This document shows, piece by piece, positions 27,542-44,249 of a DNA stretch of 64,000 nucleotides. Position numbers and translations under genes: made by a program. Source of the stretch: an uncultured Clostridia bacterium (GTDB taxonomy: Bacteria; Bacillota; Clostridia; Christensenellales; Borkfalkiaceae); NCBI GenBank assembly GCA_944367045.1, contig CALVWI010000005.1, positions 1 to 64,000 on the forward strand. The letters run 5' to 3'. The stretch's first letter is position 1. The number at the start of each line of letters is the position of its first letter. The notes beneath the pieces were generated by a model. That model ran no database searches. It was not told the DNA's origin and saw nothing but the letters and a program-made list of their open reading frames with translations.

Positions 27542-27573
27542 AAAAAACAGGCATCCGAAGATGCCTGTTTTTT
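27542..27573. terminator. Bidirectional terminator between convergent operons
   Basis: A 14-bp perfect stem (27542-27555 with 27560-27573, loop CGAA) carries A6 on one side and T6 on the other. It ends both the rightward transporter operon and the leftward eight-gene operon. Confidence 0.93.
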
Positions 27574-27585
27574 GATGCCTTTTTT

Positions 27586-29553
27586 CTATGCGTCTTTGAT
27601 CCACGAAAGCGTGCCTAAGTCGAACGTGACCTCATAGTAATCCTGCACGCTGTTGCCGTACCTGTCCTGGATCATATAGGCGATGATGAAGTTGGCTGCC
27701 TCATCTTGCGTCAGCTCCAGGACCCCGCCCACGTCCACCGTAAGCGTCTGCCCCGGAGCAAGGGAGCCGTAGGAGATCCAGTACGGGAGCGCGAGTTCCG
27801 CGCCGATGAGCGGTTCGCCCGTCGGGTAGACGGAGACGGAGGGCGTCTTGATGGTGATGGGACGGGGCAGCACCTCTAGGACGGGCACATCCCCCGCCGC
27901 CTCAAAGCGCAGGCGGTTGTCCGCATATGCGTCCCTGCCCGTCGAAGGGTCGGTGATGTCGACAACGCGCCCGACGTTCTCGTTGATCCAGGAGATGTAC
28001 TCGATGCGGATGGCGCCCGTTCCTTCGATCGAAGGGACCATATTGAGATTCACCTCCACGGCGGCGTCGGGCGGCTTGACGACGGAATAGTCCTCCTCCC
28101 CGATGGAAAGCAGCGTGCCGTCGTAGTAGCGGCTCGTGCCGTAGAAGGTGACGATGACTTCCGTCTTGATGCGGAGCTCCCCCCTGTCATAGACGATGGC
28201 GTAGTTGTCCGTCACGTCCCTGCCCTCCTCGCTGAGAACGCGCAGGATGAGCGGGTTTTCGACGGTGACGACCTCGGTCTCGGTATCGGTGATCTCCGTG
28301 AGCTGTTCGCTGTCGGGATCGGGGGAGAGATAGTGCCCGTCAAGGAGCGGATAGGGAGACGAAGCGGCGATGCCGTAGCCCCCTTCATATGCCGTGTCGT
28401 GCGGCTGACCGTCGTAGATCCACGTGCGGGAATCCGTCCACACGGTGATGGGACGGGGCACCACGGCGAGCGCCGCGCCGCCGAAGTCGAGCGCGTAATT
28501 CGCGGTGACGTCCCTGCCCTCCCCGTCGTCGACGTAGAAGAGGTCCTCGTAGAGGTAGGTGCCTGGTTCAAACGAGGAGACGTCCTGCGTGAGGGCGAGC
28601 GAATGTCCCCGCACGAGGGAGCCGGACAGACGCGCGGGCGCACTCAGATAGACGTCCCCGTACGTCCTGCTCACGCCCTGCGGGCGGAAGGACACTTTGC
28701 GCGGGGTCACGGAGAGGGAGCCGAGCTCCCATTCGATGTCGTAGTGCGCGGTGACGTCCTCCCCCTCCGAATTGTAGATGACAAGTTCGGGCATATTGTC
28801 CGCCGTACCGACATTGGTCAGCGAGACGGGATAGTTGATCTCGATGCGGTCATAAAAGGCGAGCGAGCCCGAGACGAGCTCATAGCCTGCCGCCGTCAGC
28901 GGCGTACCGTCGTATTCCTTCTCTGCATCCGCCGTGCGCACGGTGATGGGACGGGGCGTGATGTCGATCCCCTCCTGCGGGAACTCGAGCGTATAGCAGT
29001 CCGTCACGTCGGCGTCCTCTTCACTGCGGATGAGCGCCGAATCCACCGAGACGAGACAGCGGACGCTTGTCTGCCACTCGTAGTCGAACGAGACGGCCGA
29101 GAGACGGTCCCCATAGACGAGCTCGGCAGAGGCAGAGGGCGTTTCGCCGTACACGATGTCTTCGGAAGAGACGGCGACGGCGACGGCACGGGGCTCGATG
29201 GTGAAGCGGACCGCCTCGCCGTAGCGCTTGCCGCCCGTGACGGACTCGGAGACGCCGCGCGCCTCGTATTCGCCGACGAGCCTCGGCTCCTCGCGCGACC
29301 AGCTCCCACCGACTTTGCGGTATTCGACGCTCGCGTCGCGGAAGATGGCCTTTGCCTCGAAGTTGAGCGCCTCCCCGTAGGTGACGGCCGTCGGGAACTC
29401 CTCGCCAACGACGATGCCCGTGATGCCGAGCAGCGTCCCGATGATGGCAAGGAGCAGGATAAGGCCTCCCAGAATGAAGAAACGGACCTTCCACAGCTTT
29501 TCGAGAAAATCGAGCCGCTTTTGATTCTTTTGTCTGTATTCCTGATAGAGCAT
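27586..29553 (-). CDS. Membrane-anchored surface protein with MBG-like repeats
   Basis: A 655-residue protein. A basic N-terminus and one membrane helix (about residues 26-48) anchor it; the rest is extracellular. The ectodomain holds about six repeats of 80-100 residues of the MBG/YDG type, marked by PRPITV, EYDGTPL or similar, EGxDVTxxYxIxxxxGxLxV, and then the next PRPI. MBG-like domains are structural beta-domains of bacterial adhesins and cell-surface proteins. It is the last gene of the eight-gene locus, starting 12 bases after the giant transglutaminase-like gene, which ends in the same domains. It may bind or extend that protein. No cell-wall sorting motif is seen. Confidence 0.8.
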   Translation of the reverse strand: MLYQEYRQKNQKRLDFLEKLWKVRFFILGGLILLLAIIGTLLGITGIVVGEEFPTAVTYGEALNFEAKAIFRDASVEYRKVGGSWSREEPRLVGEYEARGVSESVTGGKRYGEAVRFTIEPRAVAVAVSSEDIVYGETPSASAELVYGDRLSAVSFDYEWQTSVRCLVSVDSALIRSEEDADVTDCYTLEFPQEGIDITPRPITVRTADAEKEYDGTPLTAAGYELVSGSLAFYDRIEINYPVSLTNVGTADNMPELVIYNSEGEDVTAHYDIEWELGSLSVTPRKVSFRPQGVSRTYGDVYLSAPARLSGSLVRGHSLALTQDVSSFEPGTYLYEDLFYVDDGEGRDVTANYALDFGGAALAVVPRPITVWTDSRTWIYDGQPHDTAYEGGYGIAASSPYPLLDGHYLSPDPDSEQLTEITDTETEVVTVENPLILRVLSEEGRDVTDNYAIVYDRGELRIKTEVIVTFYGTSRYYDGTLLSIGEEDYSVVKPPDAAVEVNLNMVPSIEGTGAIRIEYISWINENVGRVVDITDPSTGRDAYADNRLRFEAAGDVPVLEVLPRPITIKTPSVSVYPTGEPLIGAELALPYWISYGSLAPGQTLTVDVGGVLELTQDEAANFIIAYMIQDRYGNSVQDYYEVTFDLGTLSWIKDA

Positions 29554-29565
29554 GCCGTTTCTCCG

Positions 29566-32500
29566 TCAATACACCCGCAAAGTGCCTATGGTGACTTCGA
29601 TCGAATAGTTGCTCGTGACGTCGCGGCCATCCTCGTTCCTGATCACGATGCTTTCGATCGTGTTCAGGCTGGAGCCGCGCTCCGTCTGCGAGCCCGAGTA
29701 ATCGATCGAAATAGTCTCATTGCCGATGAACCCGCCCCTGTGCGCGCTCTCGGCGGTGAGCGGCGTGCCGTCGTACGGTTTGGAGGCGGAGAACGTCTCG
29801 ATGGTGACGGGGCGCGGCAGCACGGTGAGCGTGCCGCAGATCTTGGTGATGCTGTACTCGTCCGTCACGTCGTTCCCGTAGCGGTCGTAGACGGTCACTT
29901 CGATGTCGTTGCTAACGACGCCGACATCCGTAGGACCCGACATGAAGGAAACCATGATCCAATGGTCTGACTGCAGATCGCCCTCCCATTCAAAATTACC
30001 GGCTTCCCAATACCAAAGAGGCGTGCCGTCATACACCTTGGTGGCCGAACCGACCGTCACGGTGAGCTCATACTTCGACTGCTCGTCGCCGCCGCCTCCG
30101 CCGCCGGAGCCTTCTCCGCCGCCGGAGCCTTCTCCTGAACCACCTCCGCCGCCCGGCTGTCCGGAGGAGGGCGTCACTTCGACATTCACCCAGCCGAGGC
30201 CGTCGATGTAGACCTCGACCCAGGCGTGCGCATTTTTTGTCGTCACATCGACCGTCTCCCCCGCTTTCGTCTGCGCGGCATAGCCGATGGTGTAGCGGGC
30301 GGGGATGCCGAGCGCGCGGTAGATGAGCGTCGCCGCCGAGGCGAAGTGCTGGCAGATGCCCTCCTTGTAGTCGCGCAGGAACGCAACGACGATGTCATCC
30401 GACGCATCGAGCGAGTGGTCATAGCCCATGTTATACACCGCGACGTTCTGCACATACTCGGCAACCTTTTGAATGATGGCGGGATCGGAGGCATCCCATC
30501 CCTCCTCGCGGATGATGCCGTTGAGGTATCGAAGCGTCGATGTGGTCACGCCTCGGTAGTTATCGTAGACAAAGTCTCGGTAGGCGCGCTCGGCCGAAGC
30601 CCACTCTCCCGTCAGAGAGCCGACCGGCAGCCCGTCGCGCAGATAGTCGTAATCGAAGAAGGAGGCGCTGTAGGGCGTTGAAGTATCGCCGTAGTTGGTG
30701 ACGTCGTCCCTTTGAACGATGCCGCCGCTCCCCAATACCGTATAGTACGGGAAGAGGAACTGCGAGCTGAGGATCTCCACGGTGACGGTATAGGTATCCG
30801 CGCCCGAGCGCGCAAGCCGCTGAGACGCCGTATTCTGCAGACCGTAGCCCTGCACCGTGCCGCCATAGGAGACGGCCTCATTCCAGCCGCTGTAGCGGTA
30901 CTCGCCGAAACTCATCAGACGGAAGTAGCTGTAGACGGATTTGTCCGAATAGACATGGAATGCCACGGGCGTTTCCCCGCCAACGCCGCCGCCGGAATTC
31001 GGCTGCGATCCGATATCCCCGCTGGTATCGAGTTCGGGCGGGCTACTGTCTCCACCGCCGCCACCGCCGGGACCGCCGCCGGGCTGTCCGGAGGAGGGCG
31101 TCACTTCGACGTTGACCCAGCCGAAGCCGTCAAGATAGACCTCGACCCAGGCGTGCCCGGGCGTCTTTACCTCGACCGTCTGCCCTGCCTCGAGCGGGGC
31201 GGCATAGCCGATGGTATAGCGGGCGGGAATGCCCAACATGCGATAGATGAGCGTCGCGGCCGAAGCAAAGTGCTGGCAGATGCCCTCCTTGTAGTCGCGA
31301 AGGAACGCAACGACGATGTCGTCCTCATAGTTGAGAGCGTGATCGAATTCAAGGTTGTACGTCGCGGCATTCTGCACATAGCGGGCAACTTTGTTGATGA
31401 TGTCGGGATCGCCGGGATCGAACCCCTGCTCGGCAATGATCCGATTGATGTACCCGGCCGTCGAAGTGGGCGCGGTGAGATAGTTCGCGTAGACAAAGTC
31501 GCGGTAAACGCGCTCGTTCTCCGCCCACACGCCCGTAAGAGAGCCGCTCGGCAGCCCGTCTTGCTGATAGTTGTAGTCATAGAAGGACGCGCTGTAGGGC
31601 TGAGAGGTGTCGCCGTAGTTGGTGACGTCATCCGCCTGCACGATGCCGCCGCTGCCCAAGACGGTGAAGTACGGGAAGAAGAACTGCTTGCCCTTGAGCT
31701 CCACGGTGATATTGTACGTCGCCGTACCCGCCTGTGAGAGCAGGGCGGACGTCGAATTCTGCATGCCGTAGCCGTCCGTCAGGCCGCTGCAGACGGGCGC
31801 CTCATTCCAGCCGTTCATGCGGTAATCGCCGTAGCTCATCAGGCGGAAATAGCTGTAGGTGGTGGTATCCGAATAGACGGTGAACGCGACGGTAGGATCG
31901 CCGTCCCCATCGCCTGATCCCGCAAAGATATCTCCGCTGGTATCCAGATCACCGCCGCCGCCCGAGCCGCCGCCACCGCCGCCGGGGATGTCCTCCACGG
32001 GCGTCGCGTCCACGGCGACCCAGCCGAACCCGTTGATATAGACCTCGACCCACGCGTGTGCGGACTCATCCGTCACGTCCACGGTCATGCCGCTCTCCGT
32101 CTTTGCCGAATATCCCTTGGTATAGCGGGCGGGGAAGCCGAGCGTCCGCAGCATCAGCGTCGCCGCCGAGGCGAAGTGCTGGCTGTCGCCCTCCTTGTAG
32201 TCGCTGAGGAAGGCAACGACGATGTCATCCGACGCATCGAGCGTCGCATCGTAGTCCTTGTTGAATTTGGCGGCGCCGCGGACGTAGTCGATGACTTTTT
32301 GGATGTTGGAATAGCTCGTCCCCGAGATGCCCTCGCCCCGCAGGAGGCCCTTCAGATAGCTCTCGGTCGCATCGGGAACGGAGAGGTAGTTCTCTTGGAC
32401 GAACTTGTGGTACGCGCGCTCATACGACGCCCACGTCGCCGAAAGGCTGCCGCTCGGGATGCCGTCCCGCTCGTAATCATAGTTGTAGACGGACAATCCG

Positions 32501-34842
32501 TAGGAAAAATAGAGATCGCCCTCGTTCACGACGTCGTTTCCCTGAATGAGGCCGCTGCCCATCACATTGTAATAGGGAAAGACGAACTCGTAGCCGTACA
32601 GCGTCATCATGATATCGTACATCTCCTCGCGCGAATTGCCGAGCGCGTTGGAGATGATGTTCTGCATGCCGTAGCCGTTATACGTGATATCGTAGACCTT
32701 CGTGCTGTCCCAGCCCTGCCCCGTGTAGTCGCCGTAGCTTGCGCTGCGGTAGTAGTTGAACCGCTCCACATCCGAATAGAGCGAGAAGATGACCTTGCCC
32801 GTATAATCGGGCTTGTCGATGACCGTCGTCTCCCCCGAGTCCTCATATTCCTTCTCGGGCTCGTCGGGGAAGGGAATGGGCGGCACATTGCTGTCGTTCA
32901 GATAGCCCGTGCCCGTCGACTCGATGTTCACCCAGCCGAACCCGTCGAGATAGACCTCCGTCCAGGCGTGGCCGTCATAGTCCGTCACATCCACGGTCTC
33001 GCCCGCCGAAGTATGGCAGACATACCCCACCGTATAGCGGGCGGGGATGCCCAGCGTTCTCAAGAGCAGCGTCGTCGCCGAGGCGAAGTGCTGGCAGACG
33101 CCCATCTTATAGTCTCTGAGGAAGGCGACGACGATGTCCGACGCACTGTCGAGCGAACTGTTATAGTTCAAGTTATACGCCGCGGCGTTGTGCACATAGC
33201 CGGCCACCCTCTCGATGATGTCGGGGTCGGAGGCGTCGAAGCCCTCCTCGCGGATGATCGTCTGAAGATAACTCTTCGTCCCGCTCGGCACGTCGAGGTA
33301 GTTCTCGTAGACAAATTCACGGTACTGCCGCTCCGCCGCCGCCCATTCGGCGTCGAAACTGCCGTAGAGCCGCCCGTCGAGCTGATACATGTAGTCGTAG
33401 AAGGTGCCCGTGTACGGCTCGGAGGAATTCCCCTTGTTCACGACGTCGTTGGTCTGACGGATATCGCCGTCTCCCAGCACGGTATGGTAGGGATACGGGA
33501 AGGAGGACGTATAGAGCGTCACTTCGACGCCGTAAGTCGGGATCGCAAGCGATGAGAGCTGTGCGGACGTGGAATTCTGCAGGCCGTAGCCGTCCACCGT
33601 CTCATCGTAGACGAGCGTACTGCCCCAACCGCGGCCCGTGTAGTCGCCGTAGCTGCTCGTTTTGAGATAGGTATAGACTGACGAGTCGGAATAGACGGAC
33701 AGCATGACCTCCCCCGTGGGGTGTGGCTTGGAGATGTTCGTCGTCTCCTGCGAGTCCTCATACTGTTGGGGCTCCTCATAGGTGAACTCGAAGGGAGGGA
33801 CAAAGGAGGGGCCGTTTTCAGGATTGGTCGCATCGACATTCACCCAGCCGAACCCGTCGATATAGACCTCCGTCCAGGCGTGCGCGTTGTAGGCGTACAC
33901 ATCCACCGTCTCTTCTGCTCTCGTGCGGCAGACGTAGCCAACGGTATAGCGCGCGGGAATGCCGAGGGTGCGGAAGAGCAGCGTCGTAGCCGACGCGAAG
34001 TGGGCGGAATTCCCCACCTTATATTCGCTCAAAAATGCCCTGACGACATCGGACTCCCCGTCGAGGGCGGTATTATAATCCGTATCATACCGGGCCGCAT
34101 AGTGGACATAGGACAGAACGCGGTCGATGATATTCGTGTCGGAGGCATCGAACTTCATCGAGTCGATGATGGTCTGAAGATAAGATCTCGTTGTCGAAGG
34201 GACATAGAGATATTCGTCGTAGACAAAGTCGCGGTACTGTCGCTCCGCAGTCCACCAATCGTAGGACAGAAGCCTGTGAGGGTTGCCTTCGAACTGATAG
34301 AAATAGTCGTAGAAGGAGGCCGAATAGGGGTCGGTGATGTGACCGTCGTTGACGACGTCGTTCGCCTGCACGACTTCCCCGCTTCCGAAGACGTTGTGAT
34401 AGGGATAGACATAGGGAGCGCTGTGCAGCGTCACCTCCAGCCTGTAGCTGCTCGCCCTCGCAGTCTCGAGGACGTCGGACGTGGAATTCTGCATGCCATA
34501 GCCGTCCACCGTCTCCTGATAGCTCTCGGCGCCGCCCCAGCTCTTTCCCATATAGTTCCCGTAGCTGCCCGCGCGGAAGTAGACATAGGCCGCCTTATCC
34601 GAGTAGACGGAGAGAACGGGGTCGCCTTGAGAACCGCTCTCCCCGTCGCCGCTGCCGCCTCCGTCGCCGAACCAGCCGCCCCCGATGCCGATGCTGCCGC
34701 CCGATTCATCGATGGGCGTATCGATATCGGGACCGACGGGGTCTGCAAGCAGGAACAGGATCCCGAACGTGACCGCGACGATCAAGGCGATCATGATCGT
34801 CATCGCTCCGAATGTATACAGCCATTTTGAACGCAATCTCAT
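29566..34842 (-). CDS. Giant surface protein: five transglutaminase-like domains plus MBG repeats
   Basis: A 1758-residue protein with a membrane helix at about 10-32 and a Gly-rich linker. Five modules of ~304 residues follow, each opening with (L)SVYSD and ending in a transglutaminase-like core (HFASA, RxLGxPARYT, GY, HAWxEVYxxGxGWV). The nucleophile position is Ser279, Cys583, Ser887, Cys1189 and Cys1497; the histidine is kept in all. The acidic residue after GWV is Asp in the two Ser modules and Glu in the three Cys modules. Poly-Gly linkers separate later modules; two MBG-like domains end the protein. Bacterial relatives cross-link or cut peptides at the cell surface. It lies between the AAA ATPase gene and the MBG protein. 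Confidence 0.88.
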   Translation of the reverse strand: MRLRSKWLYTFGAMTIMIALIVAVTFGILFLLADPVGPDIDTPIDESGGSIGIGGGWFGDGGGSGDGESGSQGDPVLSVYSDKAAYVYFRAGSYGNYMGKSWGGAESYQETVDGYGMQNSTSDVLETARASSYRLEVTLHSAPYVYPYHNVFGSGEVVQANDVVNDGHITDPYSASFYDYFYQFEGNPHRLLSYDWWTAERQYRDFVYDEYLYVPSTTRSYLQTIIDSMKFDASDTNIIDRVLSYVHYAARYDTDYNTALDGESDVVRAFLSEYKVGNSAHFASATTLLFRTLGIPARYTVGYVCRTRAEETVDVYAYNAHAWTEVYIDGFGWVNVDATNPENGPSFVPPFEFTYEEPQQYEDSQETTNISKPHPTGEVMLSVYSDSSVYTYLKTSSYGDYTGRGWGSTLVYDETVDGYGLQNSTSAQLSSLAIPTYGVEVTLYTSSFPYPYHTVLGDGDIRQTNDVVNKGNSSEPYTGTFYDYMYQLDGRLYGSFDAEWAAAERQYREFVYENYLDVPSGTKSYLQTIIREEGFDASDPDIIERVAGYVHNAAAYNLNYNSSLDSASDIVVAFLRDYKMGVCQHFASATTLLLRTLGIPARYTVGYVCHTSAGETVDVTDYDGHAWTEVYLDGFGWVNIESTGTGYLNDSNVPPIPFPDEPEKEYEDSGETTVIDKPDYTGKVIFSLYSDVERFNYYRSASYGDYTGQGWDSTKVYDITYNGYGMQNIISNALGNSREEMYDIMMTLYGYEFVFPYYNVMGSGLIQGNDVVNEGDLYFSYGLSVYNYDYERDGIPSGSLSATWASYERAYHKFVQENYLSVPDATESYLKGLLRGEGISGTSYSNIQKVIDYVRGAAKFNKDYDATLDASDDIVVAFLSDYKEGDSQHFASAATLMLRTLGFPARYTKGYSAKTESGMTVDVTDESAHAWVEVYINGFGWVAVDATPVEDIPGGGGGGSGGGGDLDTSGDIFAGSGDGDGDPTVAFTVYSDTTTYSYFRLMSYGDYRMNGWNEAPVCSGLTDGYGMQNSTSALLSQAGTATYNITVELKGKQFFFPYFTVLGSGGIVQADDVTNYGDTSQPYSASFYDYNYQQDGLPSGSLTGVWAENERVYRDFVYANYLTAPTSTAGYINRIIAEQGFDPGDPDIINKVARYVQNAATYNLEFDHALNYEDDIVVAFLRDYKEGICQHFASAATLIYRMLGIPARYTIGYAAPLEAGQTVEVKTPGHAWVEVYLDGFGWVNVEVTPSSGQPGGGPGGGGGGDSSPPELDTSGDIGSQPNSGGGVGGETPVAFHVYSDKSVYSYFRLMSFGEYRYSGWNEAVSYGGTVQGYGLQNTASQRLARSGADTYTVTVEILSSQFLFPYYTVLGSGGIVQRDDVTNYGDTSTPYSASFFDYDYLRDGLPVGSLTGEWASAERAYRDFVYDNYRGVTTSTLRYLNGIIREEGWDASDPAIIQKVAEYVQNVAVYNMGYDHSLDASDDIVVAFLRDYKEGICQHFASAATLIYRALGIPARYTIGYAAQTKAGETVDVTTKNAHAWVEVYIDGLGWVNVEVTPSSGQPGGGGGSGEGSGGGEGSGGGGGGDEQSKYELTVTVGSATKVYDGTPLWYWEAGNFEWEGDLQSDHWIMVSFMSGPTDVGVVSNDIEVTVYDRYGNDVTDEYSITKICGTLTVLPRPVTIETFSASKPYDGTPLTAESAHRGGFIGNETISIDYSGSQTERGSSLNTIESIVIRNEDGRDVTSNYSIEVTIGTLRVY

Positions 34843-34851
34843 GATGTTCTC

Positions 34852-36333
34852 CTATCCGTTCTGCACGATGCGCCTGATCACGTCCTTGCACCGCGGCATC
34901 CTGTCCTCGCCGAAGAGGTCGTCCAGGAACTTGGAAAGCGTCTCCGCCTCGCTGCGCACATAGGCAGCGTTCAGGGAGGCGAGCTTGCGCATGACCTTCT
35001 TGCTTAAGATATCGTCGAGGGCATCCAGCTCCTCGCCGCCGCAGGCGACGTAGACGGAGATGTAGCTCCTGATCTGCCGCATGATGCGGTTGCCGAAGGT
35101 GATGCGGAATTTTTCGATAAGATACTCGTCGAGCGCCTTTAAGCGGTTCTTGTTGCGCGCCGTGATCTCGAACCACTCCTCCTCTTCCGAGACCATCGTG
35201 CGGAAGCGCTCGGCGGTAAAGCCGACGCGGCCCGTGGGGGCGTCCTCGTCGGGCGCAAAGTACTCCGCCTTGTTGTTGAGGTCCATGATCATGGCGCGGT
35301 CGTACACCTTGTCCGAGATAGCAAACGTACTGTCGTCGTTGTTGGCGGTACCGATGAACCACATGTTATCGGGCAAGTGGATGCGCCCGTTCCTCAACCC
35401 CTTGGGGTCGTTGACCCAGACGTCGGGAACGACGTCGAGATAGCGGGACTCCGAATCGGGGATCTCGAGAAGGGACAGAAACTCTGCAAAGTAGTACTCG
35501 ACGCGGGCGATGTTGAGCTCGTCCAGAACGACGACATACATCTTGTCGCTCATGTCCGCCTCGTACATCTTCTCAAGGAGCAGCGTCTCGTTGTATTGAC
35601 GGGTAAATTCGTTGTAGTAGCCGAGAAGGTCCGTCCGCTCCTTCCACATGGGCTGCACGGGCACGATGACGGAGGGATTGCCCATGAATTCGCCGAAGGC
35701 GTAGGCAAGCGACGTCTTGCCCGTACCCGACATGCCCTGCAGGATGAGCACGCGCGAGACGGCCATCCCCGCAATGAAGGCGCGGATATCGTCGATGCTG
35801 TAGTAGAGGCCGAGACGAGCCGCTGCGAAGTCGCGGAAGCGGTCGCACAGTTCCTTGAGTGACTTCACGCCCGAAGCGGAGCGGTCCCTTGTCTCCCCTC
35901 TCCCCATTCCGTCGATGCGGTTGAGGACGGAAAAGCGCGGTTCGGGCACGGCATCCCGCTTTGCCTGTTCGGCGGCGCGTTCCTCGGCCTCCTTTTTGGC
36001 AAGTTCCGCCGTGGCCCTGCGCCAGAGAGCCGCCATCTCCTGAAAGCGCCTGCGGCGCAGGCTGTTGAGGATGAGCAGGCCGATGAGCATCACGGGGATG
36101 ACGATCATCCAGAAGATCGCCATGACGGAGAGGAACTTGGAGCGCGAGAGGAAGTCGCGCAGCTCCTCGAGCATGGGGTCGAGAAGGCCCTGAAGCTTGA
36201 GATAGACGAGCACGCCGATGAGCGTTCCGCCGATGATGAGCAGCAGGGCGAGCAGGAAGATGGCGCCACCGTACTTCTTTTTGACTTTCCCGTACGCGGC
36301 GGGGCTTTCAAACAGATAATCCCTATTTCTCAT
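34852..36333 (-). CDS. Membrane-anchored McrB-like AAA+ ATPase, two-helix form
   Basis: A 493-residue protein. Two membrane helices (23-45 and 67-91) are followed by a charged linker and an AAA+ domain of the McrB/dynein-related type. Walker A is GMSGTGKT (200-207), PMWKERTDLLGYYNEF follows, Walker B is VVVLDELN (267-274), and sensor 1 lies in WFIGTANNDDSTFA (325-338). All catalytic motifs are intact. The C-terminal helical region (FGNRIMRQIRSY, GGEELDALDD) is shared with the 38105-39379 protein and with the dead copy in the 39385-42609 protein. The ATPase should face the cytoplasm. Its start overlaps the DUF2357-like gene (ATGA). I infer that it drives or gates the surface module. Confidence 0.88.
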   Translation of the reverse strand: MRNRDYLFESPAAYGKVKKKYGGAIFLLALLLIIGGTLIGVLVYLKLQGLLDPMLEELRDFLSRSKFLSVMAIFWMIVIPVMLIGLLILNSLRRRRFQEMAALWRRATAELAKKEAEERAAEQAKRDAVPEPRFSVLNRIDGMGRGETRDRSASGVKSLKELCDRFRDFAAARLGLYYSIDDIRAFIAGMAVSRVLILQGMSGTGKTSLAYAFGEFMGNPSVIVPVQPMWKERTDLLGYYNEFTRQYNETLLLEKMYEADMSDKMYVVVLDELNIARVEYYFAEFLSLLEIPDSESRYLDVVPDVWVNDPKGLRNGRIHLPDNMWFIGTANNDDSTFAISDKVYDRAMIMDLNNKAEYFAPDEDAPTGRVGFTAERFRTMVSEEEEWFEITARNKNRLKALDEYLIEKFRITFGNRIMRQIRSYISVYVACGGEELDALDDILSKKVMRKLASLNAAYVRSEAETLSKFLDDLFGEDRMPRCKDVIRRIVQNG

Positions 36334-38090
36334 CGGCGTTCCTCCGCGGACGGCTCATCGTCCGTCTCTTCGCTGTCCGTCTCCCGTGCCGTTCCGTCCG
36401 TCCCTTCGGGCGGCTCCGCGGCGGGCGGGGGCGTTTCCTGCGTCTCTTTTTGCTTTTTCTTGAATTTCTGTGCAAAGAATTGCTTGATATCGGCCATGAG
36501 TTCGCCGCGCAGGATCTGCTTGGCGGTCTTCCATTCGCCGCGCGCGTAGAAGGCGAGCACTTCGAGCTCGTGCTCGAGCTCGCCGAACGCCTCCTCCGAC
36601 GTGTAGTCGTCGACGTCCGTCAGAAGCCCGTGCTCCTTGCGGATGGCTAAAAGACGCGCCCTGTCGAGCGCCCGCGTGCGTTCCAGCTCCTTCATCTCCG
36701 CCTGCAGCTGTTCCTGCATGCGGCTGCTCTCCTGAACGCGCTCGTCCGCCGCACGGACGGCTTCGTCGCGCTCCGTCAGGATGCGGGCGATCTCGTCCTC
36801 CTTCTTGCGGTTGACGTCGGCCATCTCCTCGGCATGGGCGGCGGACTCCTCCGCCATCTGACGCCCGAGCTCCTCGATGCGCCCGTTGAGCGCCGCGGCC
36901 TTCTCGGCATGCGTCCGTTCGAGCGACTCGATCTCTGCGGCGTGCGCCGCGGCCTGCTGTTTGAGAGCGGTGTTCTCCGCCTCGAGCGAGGGGATACGGT
37001 CCGCCTCTCTTCCGAGGGTGCGCACCTGCTGTTCGAGCAGGAGGATGTATTCCTCGGGCGAGACGCCCTCCTCCTTCACGCGGCGGCGCATGCGCTCGAG
37101 CTCCTCGGCTCTCCTGCGCTTCTCCTCCTCGGCGCGGCGGCGGTTCTCCTCCTCATACGCCTGTTTTAAGGACTCCTGAAGCCCCAGCCCGTACTCATAC
37201 CCCAAAAAGGAGAGGAGCAGCACGGGTTCGACGAATTCGGCGGCGACGCGCCTGTCGGCCGTGTCCGCCTCGACGATCTCCTCTTCGACGGTGAAGCCGT
37301 CCCCTTCGTAGGAGGAGATGTAGTCGTAGAGGACGACCACCTCCTTGAAGTTCTTGTCCATCCGAAGGACGTTGGTCTTGGTGATGGGCGGCTTGAGCTT
37401 GTCCGCCTTGGCGACTTCCACCATGAGCGGCGTGCGGAGATAGGCGAGCGTGATGCGAAGGAGGCGCTCGATGTGGTCGAGTTTCTCCCCCATGCCCCCG
37501 CGGGCGCGGAGGACGGGATCGTCCGGCCGTGATTCGGTCATGTGCAGCTCGTAGGAGAGCGTCGTCTTGCCCTCCGTGAACGTCTTCTTCATGTCCGTCT
37601 CGCCGCGGTAGGTGTTCGTCTTTTTGACGATGGCATTGTAGCGGACGGAGATGAAGTCGCGCAGGTGGCAGAGCACCATGTAGAGGAACCTGTTCTCGTA
37701 CACGGCGTAGTTGCTCAGCCGCTCGACGGTATATAACTTTTCGGGGACGAGCTCGCCGTCCTCGCGTTCGCGCGTCAGAAGATTGCTGTGCCGCGCGAGG
37801 TGTTCGACCGACTCACGCGAGACGCGCTTGACCTTTTCGATGGGGTCGACTTCGCCGACGGAGCGGATGAACTGCCGTTCCTCGTCGATGGCCTTGCCGA
37901 TAAAGACGAGCCCCCTGTCGATCGCCTCCACCCAGTCCTCAGAAATATGGCAGGTATAGCCGATGCGGCGGATCTTATCGCGGCTCTCGGCATTGATGGC
38001 CGCCTCGCGGAGAGCGCTGCTCTCGCGCTCGCCCTCGATCGCCTTGAGGTACTCGGTATAGGCGCGGAATAATACGTCCGTTCGAGACAT
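36330..38090 (-). CDS. DUF2357/McrC-like coiled-coil protein without nuclease domain
   Basis: The start at 38090 behind GGAGGG gives 586 residues. The N-terminal half resembles the DUF2357 domain found in McrC-like partners of McrB ATPases: YTVERLSNYAVYENRFLY (the YENRF signature) and NVLRMDKNFKEVVVLYDYI. Where McrC-like proteins carry a PD-(D/E)XK nuclease, this one has a long Glu/Arg-rich coiled coil (about 307-480), a short helical domain and an acidic, probably disordered tail. No membrane helix is seen. It lies between two McrB-like ATPase genes, so it probably is their cytoplasmic partner or adaptor. The DUF2357 match is by eye and moderate. Confidence 0.72.
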   Translation of the reverse strand: MSRTDVLFRAYTEYLKAIEGERESSALREAAINAESRDKIRRIGYTCHISEDWVEAIDRGLVFIGKAIDEERQFIRSVGEVDPIEKVKRVSRESVEHLARHSNLLTREREDGELVPEKLYTVERLSNYAVYENRFLYMVLCHLRDFISVRYNAIVKKTNTYRGETDMKKTFTEGKTTLSYELHMTESRPDDPVLRARGGMGEKLDHIERLLRITLAYLRTPLMVEVAKADKLKPPITKTNVLRMDKNFKEVVVLYDYISSYEGDGFTVEEEIVEADTADRRVAAEFVEPVLLLSFLGYEYGLGLQESLKQAYEEENRRRAEEEKRRRAEELERMRRRVKEEGVSPEEYILLLEQQVRTLGREADRIPSLEAENTALKQQAAAHAAEIESLERTHAEKAAALNGRIEELGRQMAEESAAHAEEMADVNRKKEDEIARILTERDEAVRAADERVQESSRMQEQLQAEMKELERTRALDRARLLAIRKEHGLLTDVDDYTSEEAFGELEHELEVLAFYARGEWKTAKQILRGELMADIKQFFAQKFKKKQKETQETPPPAAEPPEGTDGTARETDSEETDDEPSAEERR

Positions 38091-38104
38091 GATGCCCTCC
38101 GTCC

Positions 38105-39379
38105 TCAGATGGTCGCGGCGATCCTGCGGACGTACTCCTTGCATTGGAGCATCCTGTCTTCGCCGAAAATGCTGTCGATGTATGCGATGAGCGCTTCCGA
38201 TTCACTGCGCACGTAGGCGGCGTTCTGCGTCTCCAACTTGCGGAACACCTTCTTGGCGATGATGTCGTCGAGGGCGTCGAGCTCCTCCCCGCCGCAGGCG
38301 ACGTAGATGGGAAGATAGGCGCGGATCTGACGCATGATACGGTTGCCGAAGGTGAGGTGGAACTTTTCGATGAGGTAGCTGTCGAGCTTCTGCAGATGTT
38401 CCATGCATTCGTCGCTGACGGGGTACTTTTCGACGGCCTCGGCCGCGAGAGCGGTGAACTGTTTGGCGCGGAGGGGCACGTTGCGGCTGCCCGACGCCTG
38501 GAAGGGCTCGAACTTTTTGTCGAGGTTGAGGACCATCGCACGGTCATACACCTTATCGGAGATGGCGAAGGTACTGTCGTCGTTGTTTGCCGTGCCGATG
38601 AACCACATGTTCTCGGGCAGGCGGATGCGGCCGTTCACGAGGTCCTTGGGGTCGCCCTCGGTGCGGTCGCTCACGACGTCGAGATAGCGCGACTCGGGAT
38701 TGGGGATCTCGAGCATGGACAAAAACTCCGCGAAGTAATACTCGACGCGGGCGATGTTGAGCTCGTCGAGGATGACGATATACATCTCCTCCCTGCCGTT
38801 CGCCTCGTACATCTTCTCAAGGAGCAGCGTCTCATTGAAGTGCTTGGTGAACTCGTTGTAGTAGCCGAGAAGGTCCGTTCTCTCCTTCCACATGGGCTGC
38901 ACGGGGATGATGGCGGAGGGATTGCCGATGAATTCGCCGAAGGCGTACGCGAGCGACGTCTTGCCCGTGCCCGACATGCCCTGCAAAATGACGATGTGCG
39001 AGACGGCGAGGCCGGCGATGAACTCACGGATGGCGGCGATGTCGTAGTAGAGGCCCAATTTCCCTGCCGCGAAGATGCGGAACTCCTCGCAGAGATCGCG
39101 AAGGGAGATCTCGACGCGCGGAGGTGCGGGAGGCTTGGGGTGTTCGTCGTATTCCTTGAGCATGGAAAAGCGGGAGGTCTTCTCCTCTTCGTCCCCCTTC
39201 TCCTGCGTCTCCTCCGCTTTCTGAGCGGCGCGGACGATGCGCTTGGACGCCGACTGAAGGCGGCTTTCGTTGACCATGACGAGAACGACGACCGCGATCA
39301 TGATGGCGACGATGATGACGACATAGGCGATGATGTAGGACGGCTGCGTGATCTGTTCCAAAAATTGCTCAAAATCCAT
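38105..39379 (-). CDS. Membrane-anchored McrB-like AAA+ ATPase, one-helix form
   Basis: A 424-residue protein with one membrane helix (15-37), a charged linker and an AAA+ domain nearly identical in its motifs to the 34852-36333 protein: Walker A GMSGTGKT (134-141), PMWKERTDLLGYYNEF, Walker B IVILDELN (201-208) and TANNDDSTFAISDKVYDRAM. All catalytic residues are present. The two ATPases differ mainly in membrane anchor and linker, which suggests a hetero-oligomeric ring or two rings. McrB relatives form hexamers that use GTP or ATP together with an McrC-type partner; the candidate partner gene lies immediately downstream. Confidence 0.88.
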   Translation of the reverse strand: MDFEQFLEQITQPSYIIAYVVIIVAIMIAVVVLVMVNESRLQSASKRIVRAAQKAEETQEKGDEEEKTSRFSMLKEYDEHPKPPAPPRVEISLRDLCEEFRIFAAGKLGLYYDIAAIREFIAGLAVSHIVILQGMSGTGKTSLAYAFGEFIGNPSAIIPVQPMWKERTDLLGYYNEFTKHFNETLLLEKMYEANGREEMYIVILDELNIARVEYYFAEFLSMLEIPNPESRYLDVVSDRTEGDPKDLVNGRIRLPENMWFIGTANNDDSTFAISDKVYDRAMVLNLDKKFEPFQASGSRNVPLRAKQFTALAAEAVEKYPVSDECMEHLQKLDSYLIEKFHLTFGNRIMRQIRAYLPIYVACGGEELDALDDIIAKKVFRKLETQNAAYVRSESEALIAYIDSIFGEDRMLQCKEYVRRIAATI

Positions 39380-39384
39380 AACTC

Positions 39385-42300
39385 TTATTCCTCCCTGTTG
39401 ACGGATGCGGCAAAGCTGTTCAAGCCGATGATCCTGCGGCAGCAGGCGATCGGCCCGCCCAGGATATCTTCCAGGATGATGGCGCCGCGGCCTTCCTCAT
39501 CGGCGGCGGCGAGACGGGGCTGAATGGACGGCAGCAGTTCCGCCGCAATGGCGGAATCGAGCGCGTCGTCCTCGCTTCCCCCCGAGGCACAGTAGGTCGA
39601 GGCGTGCATCTCGAGCTTGGTCCACGCGCGGTTGCCGAAGCGGCAGGGCGCATTTTCGCTCCCGAGCTGCGCTTCGAGGCGATCGAGCTTCTTCCAATAC
39701 CCCTCGCGCAGGGGGAACTGCTCGCGCACGAGCGCGCACAGGTTGTAGAATTGGTAGCTGCCGAGCGGCCTCATGGGGGTGCGTTCCTCGCGCGGGGGAG
39801 TCAGTTCGACGGCGGGCGAGAGCACGGCCGCGATGCTCAAGATCTCCTCGGGGACGGGCCCCTCCTCCGTGCCGACAAACACCCAGAGGTTGGGCGGTGT
39901 GACGCCCTGTTTCTGCACGGGGCGGCCCTCCGCGAGCAGGCGGGTATGCCCGACGCGTCGCACCGGGCGGAGCTCCGAGAGCCCCTCGGGAGGCTGATGA
40001 CGGATGAGGGCGAGGTACATGAGCGAAGGCTTGCGTTCCGCCTCCGTCACGGCCTCCGCAAGAGCGCTCCGCCGCCAGCCCGAGCGCTCATTCACGAAGA
40101 AGGGCGTCCCGGTCCCGGCAGCGCTGTCTGCCATGAATTCGGTCCCGAAATACTCCGAGATCACTTTCGAGAGTACGTTGAGCTTTTCCTCGGGATACTC
40201 CGGGAAGAGCAGCAGCTGCGCCGAACCCATCGCCGAGAGGAGGTCCCTCACGTCGCGCTCGGGCATGACGACGCCGCGCTCTGCGGCAAAGGTGTGAAGG
40301 TCCCTGCACACGTCCGCAAAGGTGAACTTTTTATCGAAATAGCGGGGTTCGTCCGGCTCGTTCCCCTCCTCGCCGCTCTCGGAAGTCTTTGCCTCCGCGG
40401 CGGATGCGTTCTGCTCCGAAAGGGTATCGTCGTCCGCAAAGGTGACGTTGCGCCTGACGAGCGCCTCTTCCGCGGCACGCCGCTTCCATGCGCTCGATTC
40501 CGCGCCCAGCGTCAGCGCGGCGACGGCGGCGATCGCAATAAACACGATGGTGGTGACGAGTTCGGACTCCGTGAGATCGGCGTCGGACAGGAAGGACGAA
40601 CCCGTGACGACGGCGATGAAGAGCGCCAGGATGAGCACGCCCAACGCGATGCCCCGCACCAGCTGCAGGCTCAGCGGGCGGGCGATGGCCCCCTTCCCGA
40701 GGGCAAACCCCCGCGAGGCGTTGCCGTACTCGCGGAAGTAATCGCAGGGCTTTGCCTTGGAGCGTTCGGGCTCCTCTCCCTTTAAAAGGCGCACGCCGCA
40801 CAGGCGGACGTCGGATGCGGAGGAGCCGATATAGACGGTATAAACGCCCGCTTTCACCGCTTCGAGGCGGGTCACGCCATCGTAGACAGAGAAGGCGTCG
40901 GGCGGGAGCACGATGGTCAGCTGCCGCGACTCCCCTGCCCGGAGAAAGACGCGCGAAAAGGCGACGAGCTGCTTTTTGGGGGCGGGGAAGAGTTCCCTCG
41001 GCAGGCCGACATACACCTGCACGACCTCCGTGCCGTCGCGCTCCCCGCAGTTCTTCAGGGTGAAGCGCACGCGGTTGCCCTCCAGCTGAAGGGATGTATA
41101 GGAAAAGCGGGTATAGCCCAGCCCGTGGCCGAAGGCGTAGTGCGCGCGCACGCCCGACGTCTCGGTATAGCGATAGCCGATGAACGCGCCCGCCCTGAGG
41201 CGTCCCTCATGCTTTTCGTTCCGTAGTGCGCGGAAGGAGCGGTCGGGCTGCTCGAAACAGGTGCGCGTGAGCCTTCCCGTCGGCTCGCGCTTCCCCGAAA
41301 GGATATCCGTGAGCGCCTCCGAGCAATATCTGCCGCGCGGCGGCGCAAGCAGCACGGCCGCAAAACTGCGGTCGAAGGAGCAGTCGGGCGGAAGGGTGTC
41401 CGTCACCACGGCGATGAGCTTGCGCTTATAGCGGCGCAGCGCCTCGATGAGGGCGAGCTCATCGGACGGCAGGGCGAGCGTACGGCGCGGGCCCTCCGCG
41501 GGATGCAGGAAAAAGACGACGGCGTCCGCCTGCGAGGCGAGCTGCACGGCGGGCTCGGTCTCCTTGGCTTCCCCCGCAAGAGAGAGCGCCTTCCCGGACG
41601 GAAAGGCGGGATATCCCTCCCCGATGACGGCGATGCGCGTCCCCTCCTTGAGGGGCAGGAGCCCGTCGTTCCTGAGGAGGACGAAGCTCTCCTCGGCGGC
41701 ACGGCGCGCCTCCTTCTCGATGTCGGCAGATTTTCCGCTCGCCGAGCGCGCCCGCACGGAGAGTGCGAAGTCGACGGTCCTGTCGACGGCCTCGTTCACC
41801 GCCTCCATGGGGATGGCGGAACCCACCTCAACGGCGCCCGTCAGTTCGCGTTCGCTCGCGCCGCCCGCATCATAGGAGGCGGCGAGGCTCTCATAGCGGC
41901 CGATGGCGCGGTCCAAAGAGACCGTCGCACCGCCGATGCACGCCCCCTCCGCGAGCAGTGTATGATAGTCGACGTCGGCGGAGATGTCCTCGCCGAACAT
42001 AAACAGCTTTTTGCCGAACGCTCCGTCCTGTGCGGCACGGAAGAGTTCGCCGTTGGTCTCATAGTATCCGCCCGGGTCACGGCGCAGCGTGGAGACGGCC
42101 GCATCGAAGGGCTCCTCCGCCATCGCATAGCGGAAGGGCGCGCGCACGAAGGTCTCCATCGCGAGCGGATCGGGCGATTCGTCGAGCGGGGCGATGTCCT
42201 CCCCCGAGAGCGCCGCACGCGAGAGCGCTGCCGCAGCCCCCGCGGCATGGATGCCCCGCGCCATCGCAGCCCCGAGGGCGCCGTTCAAGCGGGGGTCCTC

Positions 42301-42609
42301 GGAAAGCCCGGGCTTATAGGCATTGACCGCGCACTTGAGATCGGGCGTCACGATGACGTTCTGCCCCACGCCGCGCGCAGGGGCGGCAAGGGCGAGGGCG
42401 GCGCGCTCGGTGAGCTCGGTATCCCACGAGCAGGCCATGCTCTCGCACGGGGGGAAGCCGGCCGTCTCCATGAGGCCGGACAATTCCGAAAGGCGCACGG
42501 CGGGCACGCCCGCCAAGTTGATGTTTGCGTCGGCGAGGCTCTCCCGCTCGGTCAGAAGGGCCACCTTCTGGCGGCGCGAAAGCCTCTCGACGATACTCGA
42601 ATGTTTCAT
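39385..42609 (-). CDS. GH3-like domain fused through a membrane hairpin to a dead McrB-like AAA domain
   Basis: A 1074-residue protein. Residues 1-640 follow the GH3 beta-glucosidase layout: a reduced N-terminal barrel, the second domain beginning near AAEESFVLLRNDGLLPL, and a fibronectin-like part (AFGHGLGYTRFSY, NCGERDGTEVVQVYVG). The canonical nucleophile motif SDW is not visible; the region reads FMFGEDIS, so activity is doubtful. Two close membrane helices (about 651-673 and 680-701) follow, then a domain (758-1074) homologous to the two AAA proteins: CRDLHTFAAERG, NLWVFVGTE, FGNRAW, GGSEDDALD. Walker A and Walker B are lost. With no signal peptide and a hairpin anchor, both large domains should be cytoplasmic. 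Confidence 0.82.
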   Translation of the reverse strand: MKHSSIVERLSRRQKVALLTERESLADANINLAGVPAVRLSELSGLMETAGFPPCESMACSWDTELTERAALALAAPARGVGQNVIVTPDLKCAVNAYKPGLSEDPRLNGALGAAMARGIHAAGAAAALSRAALSGEDIAPLDESPDPLAMETFVRAPFRYAMAEEPFDAAVSTLRRDPGGYYETNGELFRAAQDGAFGKKLFMFGEDISADVDYHTLLAEGACIGGATVSLDRAIGRYESLAASYDAGGASERELTGAVEVGSAIPMEAVNEAVDRTVDFALSVRARSASGKSADIEKEARRAAEESFVLLRNDGLLPLKEGTRIAVIGEGYPAFPSGKALSLAGEAKETEPAVQLASQADAVVFFLHPAEGPRRTLALPSDELALIEALRRYKRKLIAVVTDTLPPDCSFDRSFAAVLLAPPRGRYCSEALTDILSGKREPTGRLTRTCFEQPDRSFRALRNEKHEGRLRAGAFIGYRYTETSGVRAHYAFGHGLGYTRFSYTSLQLEGNRVRFTLKNCGERDGTEVVQVYVGLPRELFPAPKKQLVAFSRVFLRAGESRQLTIVLPPDAFSVYDGVTRLEAVKAGVYTVYIGSSASDVRLCGVRLLKGEEPERSKAKPCDYFREYGNASRGFALGKGAIARPLSLQLVRGIALGVLILALFIAVVTGSSFLSDADLTESELVTTIVFIAIAAVAALTLGAESSAWKRRAAEEALVRRNVTFADDDTLSEQNASAAEAKTSESGEEGNEPDEPRYFDKKFTFADVCRDLHTFAAERGVVMPERDVRDLLSAMGSAQLLLFPEYPEEKLNVLSKVISEYFGTEFMADSAAGTGTPFFVNERSGWRRSALAEAVTEAERKPSLMYLALIRHQPPEGLSELRPVRRVGHTRLLAEGRPVQKQGVTPPNLWVFVGTEEGPVPEEILSIAAVLSPAVELTPPREERTPMRPLGSYQFYNLCALVREQFPLREGYWKKLDRLEAQLGSENAPCRFGNRAWTKLEMHASTYCASGGSEDDALDSAIAAELLPSIQPRLAAADEEGRGAIILEDILGGPIACCRRIIGLNSFAASVNREE

Positions 42610-43208
42610 ATCCTCTCCATCTCCCCCAAGGGATGTATCTCAGTCATCTCCGCGGAGACCGTCGGCTCTGCGGGGTCTGTCGGTCCAACGGGCTGCCTGC
42701 TCTCAAGATCGGCGAGGAACAGGCTCAGAACGCCCAGTCCCAGAATGACGACCGCCGAGATGACCGCCGCCCAGATCGCCGTCTTTCTGCAGAAGGCGAC
42801 GCGGTCGCGCATCTGCCGTTTGCCGTGCACCACGGCGTGACCGACGGGCGGGAGCTTTCCGTACGTCCGTTCGACGGTCCCGTCCTCCGAAAGGCGACAG
42901 ACGGTATCGCCCGCGCGCACGAAGGCAACTTCGGCCTCCAGCCCGTTCCACTTCGACGGGATCGGGACGGGCGGGAGGGAGACGTCCTCCCCCGGCCCCA
43001 CCGAGAGCCCCGCGAATTCCTGCAGCGGGAGGTAGATCTTCTTGCCGTTGATGCCCTTGCCGCTCAGCCGCAGCGCGGCGCCGCTCACCGTAAAGCCGCA
43101 GCCGTTGTGCAGGCGGATGACCGCCGTGTTCCTGCCCTTTTCGCTCACCGTGCGGACGTTCCCGATCGTGACGAACGCCTCGGGCGGAAGGGTGTCTGTC
43201 TTGCTCAT
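42606..43208 (-). CDS. Small membrane protein with cytoplasmic beta-rich domain
   Basis: A 200-residue protein. Residues 10-115 alternate hydrophobic and polar positions like a beta-sandwich (TAVIRLHNGCGFTVSGAAL, KKIYLPLQEF, EAEVAFVRAGD). A basic stretch (KRQMRDR) and one membrane helix (143-167) follow, with a short Pro/Glu-rich outer tail. By the positive-inside rule the beta domain is cytoplasmic. Its centre resembles that of the upstream 43205-44107 protein (EVAFVRAGD versus SVAFCRTGK), so the two may be paralogous. Its start and stop overlap both neighbours by four bases, showing tight coupling. I do not recognise a named family. Confidence 0.7.
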   Translation of the reverse strand: MSKTDTLPPEAFVTIGNVRTVSEKGRNTAVIRLHNGCGFTVSGAALRLSGKGINGKKIYLPLQEFAGLSVGPGEDVSLPPVPIPSKWNGLEAEVAFVRAGDTVCRLSEDGTVERTYGKLPPVGHAVVHGKRQMRDRVAFCRKTAIWAAVISAVVILGLGVLSLFLADLESRQPVGPTDPAEPTVSAEMTEIHPLGEMERI

Positions 43209-44107
43209 GCCTGTTTCCCTCCCTCGCGGGCGGCGTCCTCGTCGTCATCGCGGGCCTGTTCGGAGGTCTTTCCTCCCGCCAACATGTTCTGAAGTGCGCA
43301 AAAGCGCGCACGCAGGAAATATTCGGCCTTTCGCCATATCCTGTGCACGCGCATCCTGATATTCCGATAAAATTCTTTGAACCGCCTGAAGTCGATGAGC
43401 CTTTTGAGCGCCGAAAGCGCACGCCTCAGATAGGGACGCGCGAACAGATCGAATGCCGCCGCAAGGAGCGGGATGCCCGCCATACAGGCGACGACCCCGC
43501 CGACTGCCCCGCCGACGGGAAGGCGTTCGGTGATGCCGAGGGCTTCGAGGGCGATCGCCTCCGCAAAGCGCATGGAGCAGCCGAGGAGCAGCCCCGCGGC
43601 CGTCGCAGCCGCAAGGCAGAGAAGGCAGGTCCACAGCCAGAAGAAGGGCGTGCGCTCCGAGCGCCGCGCGCTCCCCTTCCCCGTGCGGCAAAAGGCGACG
43701 GAGACGGACACCGTCTCTTCGGGAAGGACGGCGGGGAGCGTAAAGCGGCGGTAGGCGTTGCCCGGCTCATTGATGTGAAGAACGGCGCAGGGAACACCAT
43801 TTGCCCCGTAGGCGATGAGGCGGTACTGCGCCGCGGCGACGGGCTGCGCCCACTCGCCGATGAATTTCGTCCGCTCCGGCCCGTTGCTGCGCGTGATGAC
43901 ATAGCGGCGCATCAGCGACGAGACGGGATCGGCCGTCTCAAAGAGGACGGAAATGCCGTCCTGAAGGTCATGTTTTGCGATGCCGCGGTCACGCGGCGGA
44001 TGGAGGGCGGCATACGCCAGCATCCAGAGGCGCGGGATGACGGCTCCCGCCAATATGAGCGCCAAAATGACGCCCGCCAAAAACCAAGCTCCCCAAAAAA
44101 ACAGCAT
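43205..44107 (-). CDS. Membrane protein with beta-rich cytoplasmic domain, first gene of the locus
   Basis: A 300-residue protein with a membrane helix at the very N-terminus (about 4-28), a beta-rich domain of ~115 residues (RYVITRSNGPERTKFIGEW, RRFTLPAVLPEETVSVSVAF), two further membrane helices (about 155-180 and 198-222) and a basic, helical C-terminal tail ending in an acidic stretch. It is the first gene behind the consensus promoter at 44221-44249, with GGGGAGAG before its ATG. It probably organises the complex in the membrane. No known family is recognised. Confidence 0.7.
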   Translation of the reverse strand: MLFFWGAWFLAGVILALILAGAVIPRLWMLAYAALHPPRDRGIAKHDLQDGISVLFETADPVSSLMRRYVITRSNGPERTKFIGEWAQPVAAAQYRLIAYGANGVPCAVLHINEPGNAYRRFTLPAVLPEETVSVSVAFCRTGKGSARRSERTPFFWLWTCLLCLAAATAAGLLLGCSMRFAEAIALEALGITERLPVGGAVGGVVACMAGIPLLAAAFDLFARPYLRRALSALKRLIDFRRFKEFYRNIRMRVHRIWRKAEYFLRARFCALQNMLAGGKTSEQARDDDEDAAREGGKQA

Positions 44108-44220
44108 TCTCTCCCCTTTTTTTTGCCCGCACAGGGCAGACTACGGCCTCAAGCACGGCAGACGCTTCTCTCGCACGCCGCCGCGCCTCGGGTGCAAACA
44201 CGCCCGAATTATGTAGTTTT
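44108..44220 (-). other. 5' leader of the eight-gene operon
   Basis: About 107 nt separate the predicted start site (near 44214) from the first ATG. It holds a small GCCC/GGGC hairpin just before the ribosome binding site and no convincing reading frame. The stretch from 44250 to the terminator at 44381 holds nothing that I recognise. Confidence 0.5.
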
Positions 44221-44249
44221 ATTATACTTTAGAATGTTTTCCATGTCAA
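44221..44249 (-). promoter_or_regulatory. Perfect consensus promoter of the eight-gene AAA/transglutaminase operon
   Basis: On the minus strand TTGACA (44244-44249) and TATAAT (44221-44226) are separated by 17 bases. No obvious palindromic operator overlaps it, so strong constitutive transcription is possible. Confidence 0.92.

Follow-up and report, generated by a model that had tools for sequence, protein, structure and literature searches.

McrBC is a textbook restriction system, in which McrB ATPases normally pair with McrC nucleases. In MoxR/DUF58/TgpA clusters, an AAA+ ATPase is encoded beside a membrane-linked transglutaminase-like protein. The closest kind that has been described is the CoCoPALM class, which PMC11090510 names and leaves for later work and which is uncharacterised as far as the accessible part of that article goes. 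The same part of the article defines an NxD motif for its NxD clade, usually followed by an aspartate or a glutamate.

The window (the whole stretch of DNA that was analysed, 64,000 nucleotides) contains a cluster of eight co-directional genes on the minus strand, running from 44107 down to 27586 and transcribed in the order H, G, F, E, D, C, B, A. The first-pass annotation had described eight co-directional genes behind one consensus promoter, and this description held: the promoter scan gave 12 matches out of 12 and the genes overlap by 4 nt at three junctions. The features are as follows, the topology of the proteins being deduced from hydropathy alone.

44221..44249, minus strand: sigma-70-type promoter TTGACA-17-TATAAT (consensus scan, 12/12; a consensus match only)
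43205..44107, minus strand: H, membrane protein of 300 aa, 3 hydrophobic segments in relatives
42606..43208, minus strand: G, small membrane protein of 200 aa; relatives have a single hydrophobic segment around residue 150
39385..42609, minus strand: F, 1,074 aa, dead GH3 fold (residues 1-613), two-helix TM hairpin and dead AAA copy
38105..39379, minus strand: E, McrB-type AAA+ ATPase of 424 aa, one N-terminal TM (AAA_5 and McrB matches, intact motifs)
36330..38090, minus strand: D, DUF2357/McrC-like protein of 586 aa, long coiled coil, no nuclease domain (Pfam, structure model)
34852..36333, minus strand: C, McrB-type AAA+ ATPase of 493 aa, two N-terminal TMs
29566..34842, minus strand: B, 1,758 aa, N-terminal TM, large ectodomain, five transglutaminase-like repeats and YDG-like C-terminus
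27586..29553, minus strand: A, predicted surface protein of 655 aa, short cytosolic tail followed by a TM, MBG/YDG-like repeats
27542..27573, plus strand: terminator-like hairpin between A and convergent ABC-transporter genes (consensus scan)

The ORF of D opens at 38144 (604 aa) and its profile match begins at 38090 (586 aa). Among the 10 flanking proteins scanned, one side comprises ABC-transporter genes, including one for a BMP/PnrA-type binding protein, and the other a PfkB kinase gene and two GH32 genes; no DNA-modification gene was found among them. Rfam gave no family at or above its gathering score within the window. Beside the sugar genes, positions 49280-51163 encode a protein of 627 aa that has a Bact_surface_Ig-like domain.

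In Pfam, E and C both score above the cut-off of AAA_5. Their best NCBIfam match is an McrB model, far below its cut-off, and the solved structures matching the E/C profile at E <= 0.01 were McrB proteins only, the best being E. coli McrB (3.2e-5). In the window the two proteins carry the motifs GMSGTGKT (Walker A), LDE(L/M)N (Walker B) and GTANNDD (sensor). The three motifs are intact in 51 of 51 relatives of E (one ORF shorter than 300 aa being left out); in relatives of C, Walker A and the sensor are intact in 52 of 52 each and Walker B in 51 of 52 (six ORFs shorter than 300 aa being left out). Hydropathy predicts one N-terminal TM for E in 53 of 54 loci and two for C in 52 of 54. Thus the first reading of two ATPases with intact Walker motifs and membrane anchors was correct, and so was that of a DUF2357-like protein free of a nuclease: D matches Pfam DUF2357 at 2.1e-6, over the cut-off, and its structure model ends in a coiled coil and one long helix, the nuclease domain being absent. 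Fold comparison gave no confident McrC match for D, so that its kinship with McrC rests on one Pfam profile. F had been read as a GH3 fold joined to a dead AAA copy; its GH3 part has, in addition, lost its catalytic residues. Judged by its sequence, F is a catalytically dead GH3 fused to an AAA copy with dead motifs.

In encoding an AAA_5/McrB core together with DUF2357, the cluster resembles McrBC type IV restriction. It differs from it by predicted membrane anchors, by constant surface-type partners and by the lack of a nuclease. No nuclease Pfam match was obtained among the eight cluster proteins, and a type IV restriction system was rejected because a nuclease domain, PD-(D/E)xK or other, was found in none of them.

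A and B are the predicted surface proteins. A yields a YDG match at 1.7e-4, below the cut-off. Its tail bears the motif MLYxxYxxK, a pattern that persists across the taxonomic groups named below (39 of 42), and in the tail alignment Y3, Y6 and G46 are invariant in the 32 sequences aligned (32/32). The N-terminus of A occurs in one copy in its own genome. The window B matches Transglut_core at 5.4e-108 over 5 stretches, and YDG below its cut-off; TgpA_N-like stretches lie before the repeats (34.1 bits for a cut-off of 30), the best of which spans profile positions 208-307 of 333 only. Three of the five repeats have a Cys at the catalytic place (with HAW) and two a Ser; at the third catalytic place of these repeats (29566-34842), Glu goes with Cys and Asp with Ser. 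Across 46 relatives of B, the matches at E <= 0.001, not all of them over cut-off, were Transglut_core (18), AgI_II_C2 (15), YDG (7), TgpA_N (3) and DUF1542 (2). All relatives with the transglutaminase-like repeat pattern (18/18) have at least one Cys repeat.

The ATPases beside a membrane-linked transglutaminase-like B, with TgpA_N over its cut-off, recall the MoxR/DUF58/TgpA clusters. The ATPases here are McrB-type, however, and a transglutaminase is found in only 18 of the 46 relatives of B. MoxR (AAA_3), DUF58 and VWA gave no match among the eight proteins at E <= 0.1, and an identity with MoxR/TgpA was rejected since the cluster has no such partner. The first-pass view that the gene content fits neither of these two systems is therefore confirmed.

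H gave no Pfam or NCBIfam match at E <= 0.1 and is accessory, not all relatives showing it. G in some relatives carries a long added ectodomain after its single TM, with LRR_5 (BspA-type) in L105. Such long G-type proteins lie at L105:1226-6604, L110:626-6715 and L101:1126-6438, the starts of the latter two looking similar to that of L105. Upstream of H, L085, L090, L094 and L106 encode a multi-TM protein of about 500 aa; that of L094, the sole one tested, has a Colicin_V match below cut-off.

An 84,980-species collection was scanned for E and C. At least 571 relatives were confirmed, the best 80 of which were kept, as 70 loci. The titles of the kept loci name Clostridia, Oscillospiraceae, Bacillales/Bacilli, Anaeroplasma/Anaeroplasmataceae and Acholeplasmatales, among others; one MAG bears the label Haloplasma contractile, the isolate Anaerocaecibacter muris is included, and the nearest loci are from uncultured Clostridia, Candidatus Gallimonas among them. 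Anaeroplasma and Haloplasma are devoid of a cell wall. Peptidoglycan therefore cannot be the general substrate of the system, if the labels are right.

Of the 70 kept loci, 59 have an ORF for D. Around it, where the stretch leaves room, we recovered E in 49 of 53 cases, C in 49 of 50, A in 40 of 40 by both position and homology, and B in 44 of 44 by position, 43 of these (all but L068) also by homology to the window A or B. F or a dead third AAA was present in 40 of 46. Where no third ATPase was detected, a multi-TM protein of 266-327 aa lies before E (L074, L077, L078 and L084) or an unlabelled ORF with TM segments takes its place (L112 and L126). The cluster had been proposed to be a single module, to be doubted if its homologs lay consistently apart. 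They largely do not: the genes stay linked, and six of the eight are a core common to many relatives. In the sequence covered, L123 is a true counter-example to this linkage, its dead ATPase and E being followed by 4.5 kb without D, B, A or any other family gene.

Among 103 genomes of the genus, D was detected in 32 and the N-terminal part of A in 35, in one copy each. All 32 genomes with D also have A (hypergeometric P 1.5e-23, relatedness ignored). In the genomes with A and without D (G859, G860 and G872), the assembly is split into 110-460 contigs, and the match in G872 is weak. As D is found in a minority of the genus, the system is dispensable. In 396 sampled genomes of the same order, 109 encode an ATPase of the family at E <= 1e-30, and in 20 of these 109 both twins lie on a single contig. 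In 397 other genomes across the phylum, 51 have a distant ATPase relative at E <= 1e-20 (best 9.8e-47). Five such phylum-wide distant ATPases (L174-L178) have no TM. Two further membrane forms of the ATPase were seen in L165-L167, L168 and L169, one having four predicted TMs in about 600 aa, the other at least seven in 886-939 aa; most of these genes are followed by a DUF2357-like gene.

A match to a characterised system with the same eight components would have made the cluster a known one. The closest described kind is CoCoPALM, itself uncharacterised according to the accessible part of PMC11090510. As described there, it shares with the cluster an McrB-type NTPase with an N-terminal TM, a DUF2357 partner with a coiled coil, and a surface-protein context. 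In CoCoPALM the TM segment fused to the NTPase is FtsB-like and both partners bear coiled coils; of these features, the cluster shows the TM of the ATPases and the coiled coil of D. The cluster departs from that description in having two ATPases and a dead third, a dead GH3 and two predicted type-II surface proteins; it also lacks a signal peptidase, its transglutaminase is optional, and its ATPase pair is near-identical in many relatives. The NNDD of the window and of 51 of 51 relatives of E can be read as NxxD, or as NxD followed by D, and does not separate McrBC from CoCoPALM on the published definition available to us.

The nearest relatives are 10 single-ATPase loci of the same order (L058, L159-L164 and L171-L173). 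In all 10, D occurs with an ATPase that is about 500-526 aa long and has an N-terminal TM, and SipW-like signal peptidase genes, either one or two, are also present. Of the four tested, TIGR02228 is over its cut-off in L159, L160 and L171 and below it in L164, and the SipW model NF046067 is below its cut-off in all four. In the other eleven loci (L165-L170 and L174-L178) no SipW-like gene was listed at E <= 1e-3. Several single-ATPase loci also encode small secreted-looking proteins with a TYAWFS-like start and no Pfam or NCBIfam match where tested. In a midpoint-rooted tree with long branches, the single-ATPase group (81/89) stands beside the twin-ATPase clade (99/99). These ten clusters fit CoCoPALM, to which they were assigned by the published description in its accessible part. 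As for the cluster under study, none of its eight proteins is a signal peptidase; the TIGR02228 (signal peptidase I) matches of its own genome are on other contigs, two of them close to each other (G000:C2:69538-72685, one over cut-off). The cluster is a real variant of the McrBC/CoCoPALM kind; it is widespread, and its evolutionary signature is unusual. Its arrangement was not found in the portion of the open-access literature covered.

This signature lies in the two ATPases with intact motifs. A 300-residue core of E and C was compared in 54 unique loci including the window, 6 refetched duplicates being dropped. Within 26 of the 54 loci the DNA identity between the E and C cores is 98.4-100%; within the remaining 28 it is 60.1-93.3%, that is, below 95%. 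In all 26 near-identical loci the identity within the locus exceeds the best E-E identity to the other loci of the set (66.7-88.3%), the nearest of which differs by 12-33% in core DNA. The N-terminal anchors behave in the opposite manner: that of E is closest to the E of another locus in 26 of 26, that of C to another C in 26 of 26, and with a stricter cut on the anchors like still matches like in 52 of 52. The identity stops 0-8 nt past the stop codon in 18 of the 22 near-identical loci examined and continues 22-58 nt beyond it in the other 4. Partial tracts were detected in L069 (191 codons, 97.7%) and L076 (194 codons, 99.8%), and intermediate core identities in L108 (93.3%) and L188 (81.7%). 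Copies with real differences are found in L117 (an isolate, 98.4%), L082 (98.7%) and L183 (98.9%). In an ATPase tree of 58 rows, E and C of the same genome repeatedly group together because their cores are near-identical in DNA within loci; the labels need 14 and 13 changes, forced by the starred branches.

From the E-to-E and C-to-C matches of the anchors, combined with the identity of the cores, it follows that the two genes are old and orthologous and that only their 3' 1.1 kb has been homogenised. Read from the sequences, the pattern is one of concerted evolution, probably caused by gene conversion. What is new with respect to the known systems is this near-identical ATPase pair, in about half of the compared loci. 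The identity of the cores suggests one mixed ring that both proteins would have to fit, and would provide a rare genetic argument for such a ring. It is not needed everywhere, as shown by the window pair, which has diverged to 74.7% in DNA and 60% in protein.

The anatomy of the cluster is firm, and from it we infer a function. Our preferred reading, which we hold tentatively, is that E, C, F and D would form one ring under the membrane for the nucleotide-driven extrusion or assembly of the giant predicted surface proteins A and B. E and C would alternate in this ring, their cores kept alike by gene conversion, and would be held below the membrane by two different types of anchor. D would insert into the ring as McrC does into McrB and stimulate hydrolysis, its coiled coil serving as a rod or docking arm, while F would fill a fixed position as an inactive subunit, with its GH3 fold acting as a cytoplasmic scaffold or sugar-sensing domain and not as an enzyme. 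The ring might grip the cytosolic tail of A (MLYxxYxxK) and, by acting on the tails of A and B, cause their ectodomains to be exported, extruded, folded or polymerised. In those B proteins that have them, the transglutaminase-like domains could cross-link, trim or process the surface assembly. This retains the earlier proposal of a transmembrane machine serving surface proteins. The other half of that proposal, a cross-linking or proteolytic module as its purpose, does not survive as a general one: both the GH3 and the transglutaminase domains are optional to the system, Transglut_core being found in 18 of 46 B and GH3 missing from 5 complete third-ATPase proteins, so that neither belongs to the core. 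If the preferred reading is true, a nuclease-free membrane branch of McrBC is a ring motor recruited for building the cell surface, wall-less bacteria included. Anaerocaecibacter muris (L117), a cultured carrier, makes the system testable. A fuller version, possible if rather doubtful, is that of a restriction machinery turned surface motor, in which recurrent gene conversion in many lineages would keep identical the motor domains of two differently anchored ATPases, a dead subunit would break the symmetry of their ring, and the same repeats could excise the activator D, turning the machine off.

The main rival is a membrane-based phage defence, in which infection would be sensed by the McrB/DUF2357 ring and answered through surface or membrane proteins. 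The McrBC origin of the family and the patchy presence in 32 of 103 genus genomes agree with it, and C and E match the PADLOC candidate PDC-M26A at 2e-47 and 5.3e-50. The best stretch of these matches, however, has a length of 116-117 residues and lies in the shared ATPase core, and A, B, D, F, G and H have no PADLOC match at E <= 0.1. Moreover, the cluster has no detected nuclease, its partners are of surface type, and the scanned neighbours are mostly sugar and nucleoside-type uptake genes. In 72,556 plasmid and 50,697 phage records no close copy was found, all matches having less than 60% identity and none covering 80% of the query. We consider this defence role unlikely.

A complex responding to envelope stress or sugar, in which the dead GH3 would bind a cytoplasmic glycan or glycoside and set the activity of the ring on the surface proteins, is quite unlikely too. 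F shares fold and sequence with GH3 beta-glucosidases; it differs from them in lacking the catalytic Asp and KH and in its fusion to a TM hairpin and a dead AAA. Its GH3 fold is retained nearly full length despite the lost catalytic residues, so that binding may be selected, and two GH32 genes lie beside the cluster. Against this, the catalytic-site columns vary widely (the nucleophile Asp is kept at its column in 4 of 38 GH3 relatives and the Lys of KH in 0 of 38), and the GH3 part, present in 39 of 46 third-ATPase proteins, is missing from 5 complete ones, the remaining 2 being truncated by the start of their contig.

In the 26 near-identical loci, for instance L107, L083 and L112, the ATPase cores make direct repeats of about 1.1 kb that flank D. 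Recombination between them could excise D and turn the machine off in part of a population, as in a device for surface variation. Such a device seems improbable to us. D is absent from 11 of the 70 kept loci. Among these, L086, L101, L102 and L113 end at or near an ATPase, L103 and L121 start inside one, and L123 is the counter-example described above. In the other four (L080, L085, L110 and L116), a single ATPase gene encodes an E-type anchor and the next downstream gene begins 16-52 nt after it, as excision predicts. In 10 of the 11 genomes D was not found in the contigs of at least 3,000 bases that the search covered; the genome of L103 has D genes on two other contigs, close to their ends. 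Assembly collapse gives the same picture, however, and an excised loop could be missed. Since contigs below 3 kb are outside the data, excision of D and collapse are indistinguishable here.

That the E-C identity itself is an artefact, one collapsed repeat having been copied into both places, is very improbable: nearly all loci are MAG contigs by their titles, the identity is exact in several, four D-less loci resemble collapsed repeats and the L103 genome has its D genes near contig ends, yet collapse needs prior near-identity where the nearest other locus differs by 12-33%, truly differing copies exist (L117, L082, L183, L108 and L188), the tracts of L069 and L076 are partial, and the borders of identity follow genes. 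Collapse alone cannot make the pattern; in some pairs, it may have removed the last differences. Assemblies may tend to break or collapse at this locus, and a near-identical pair would explain its breakage in metagenome assemblies. Several MAG contigs end inside E or C genes.
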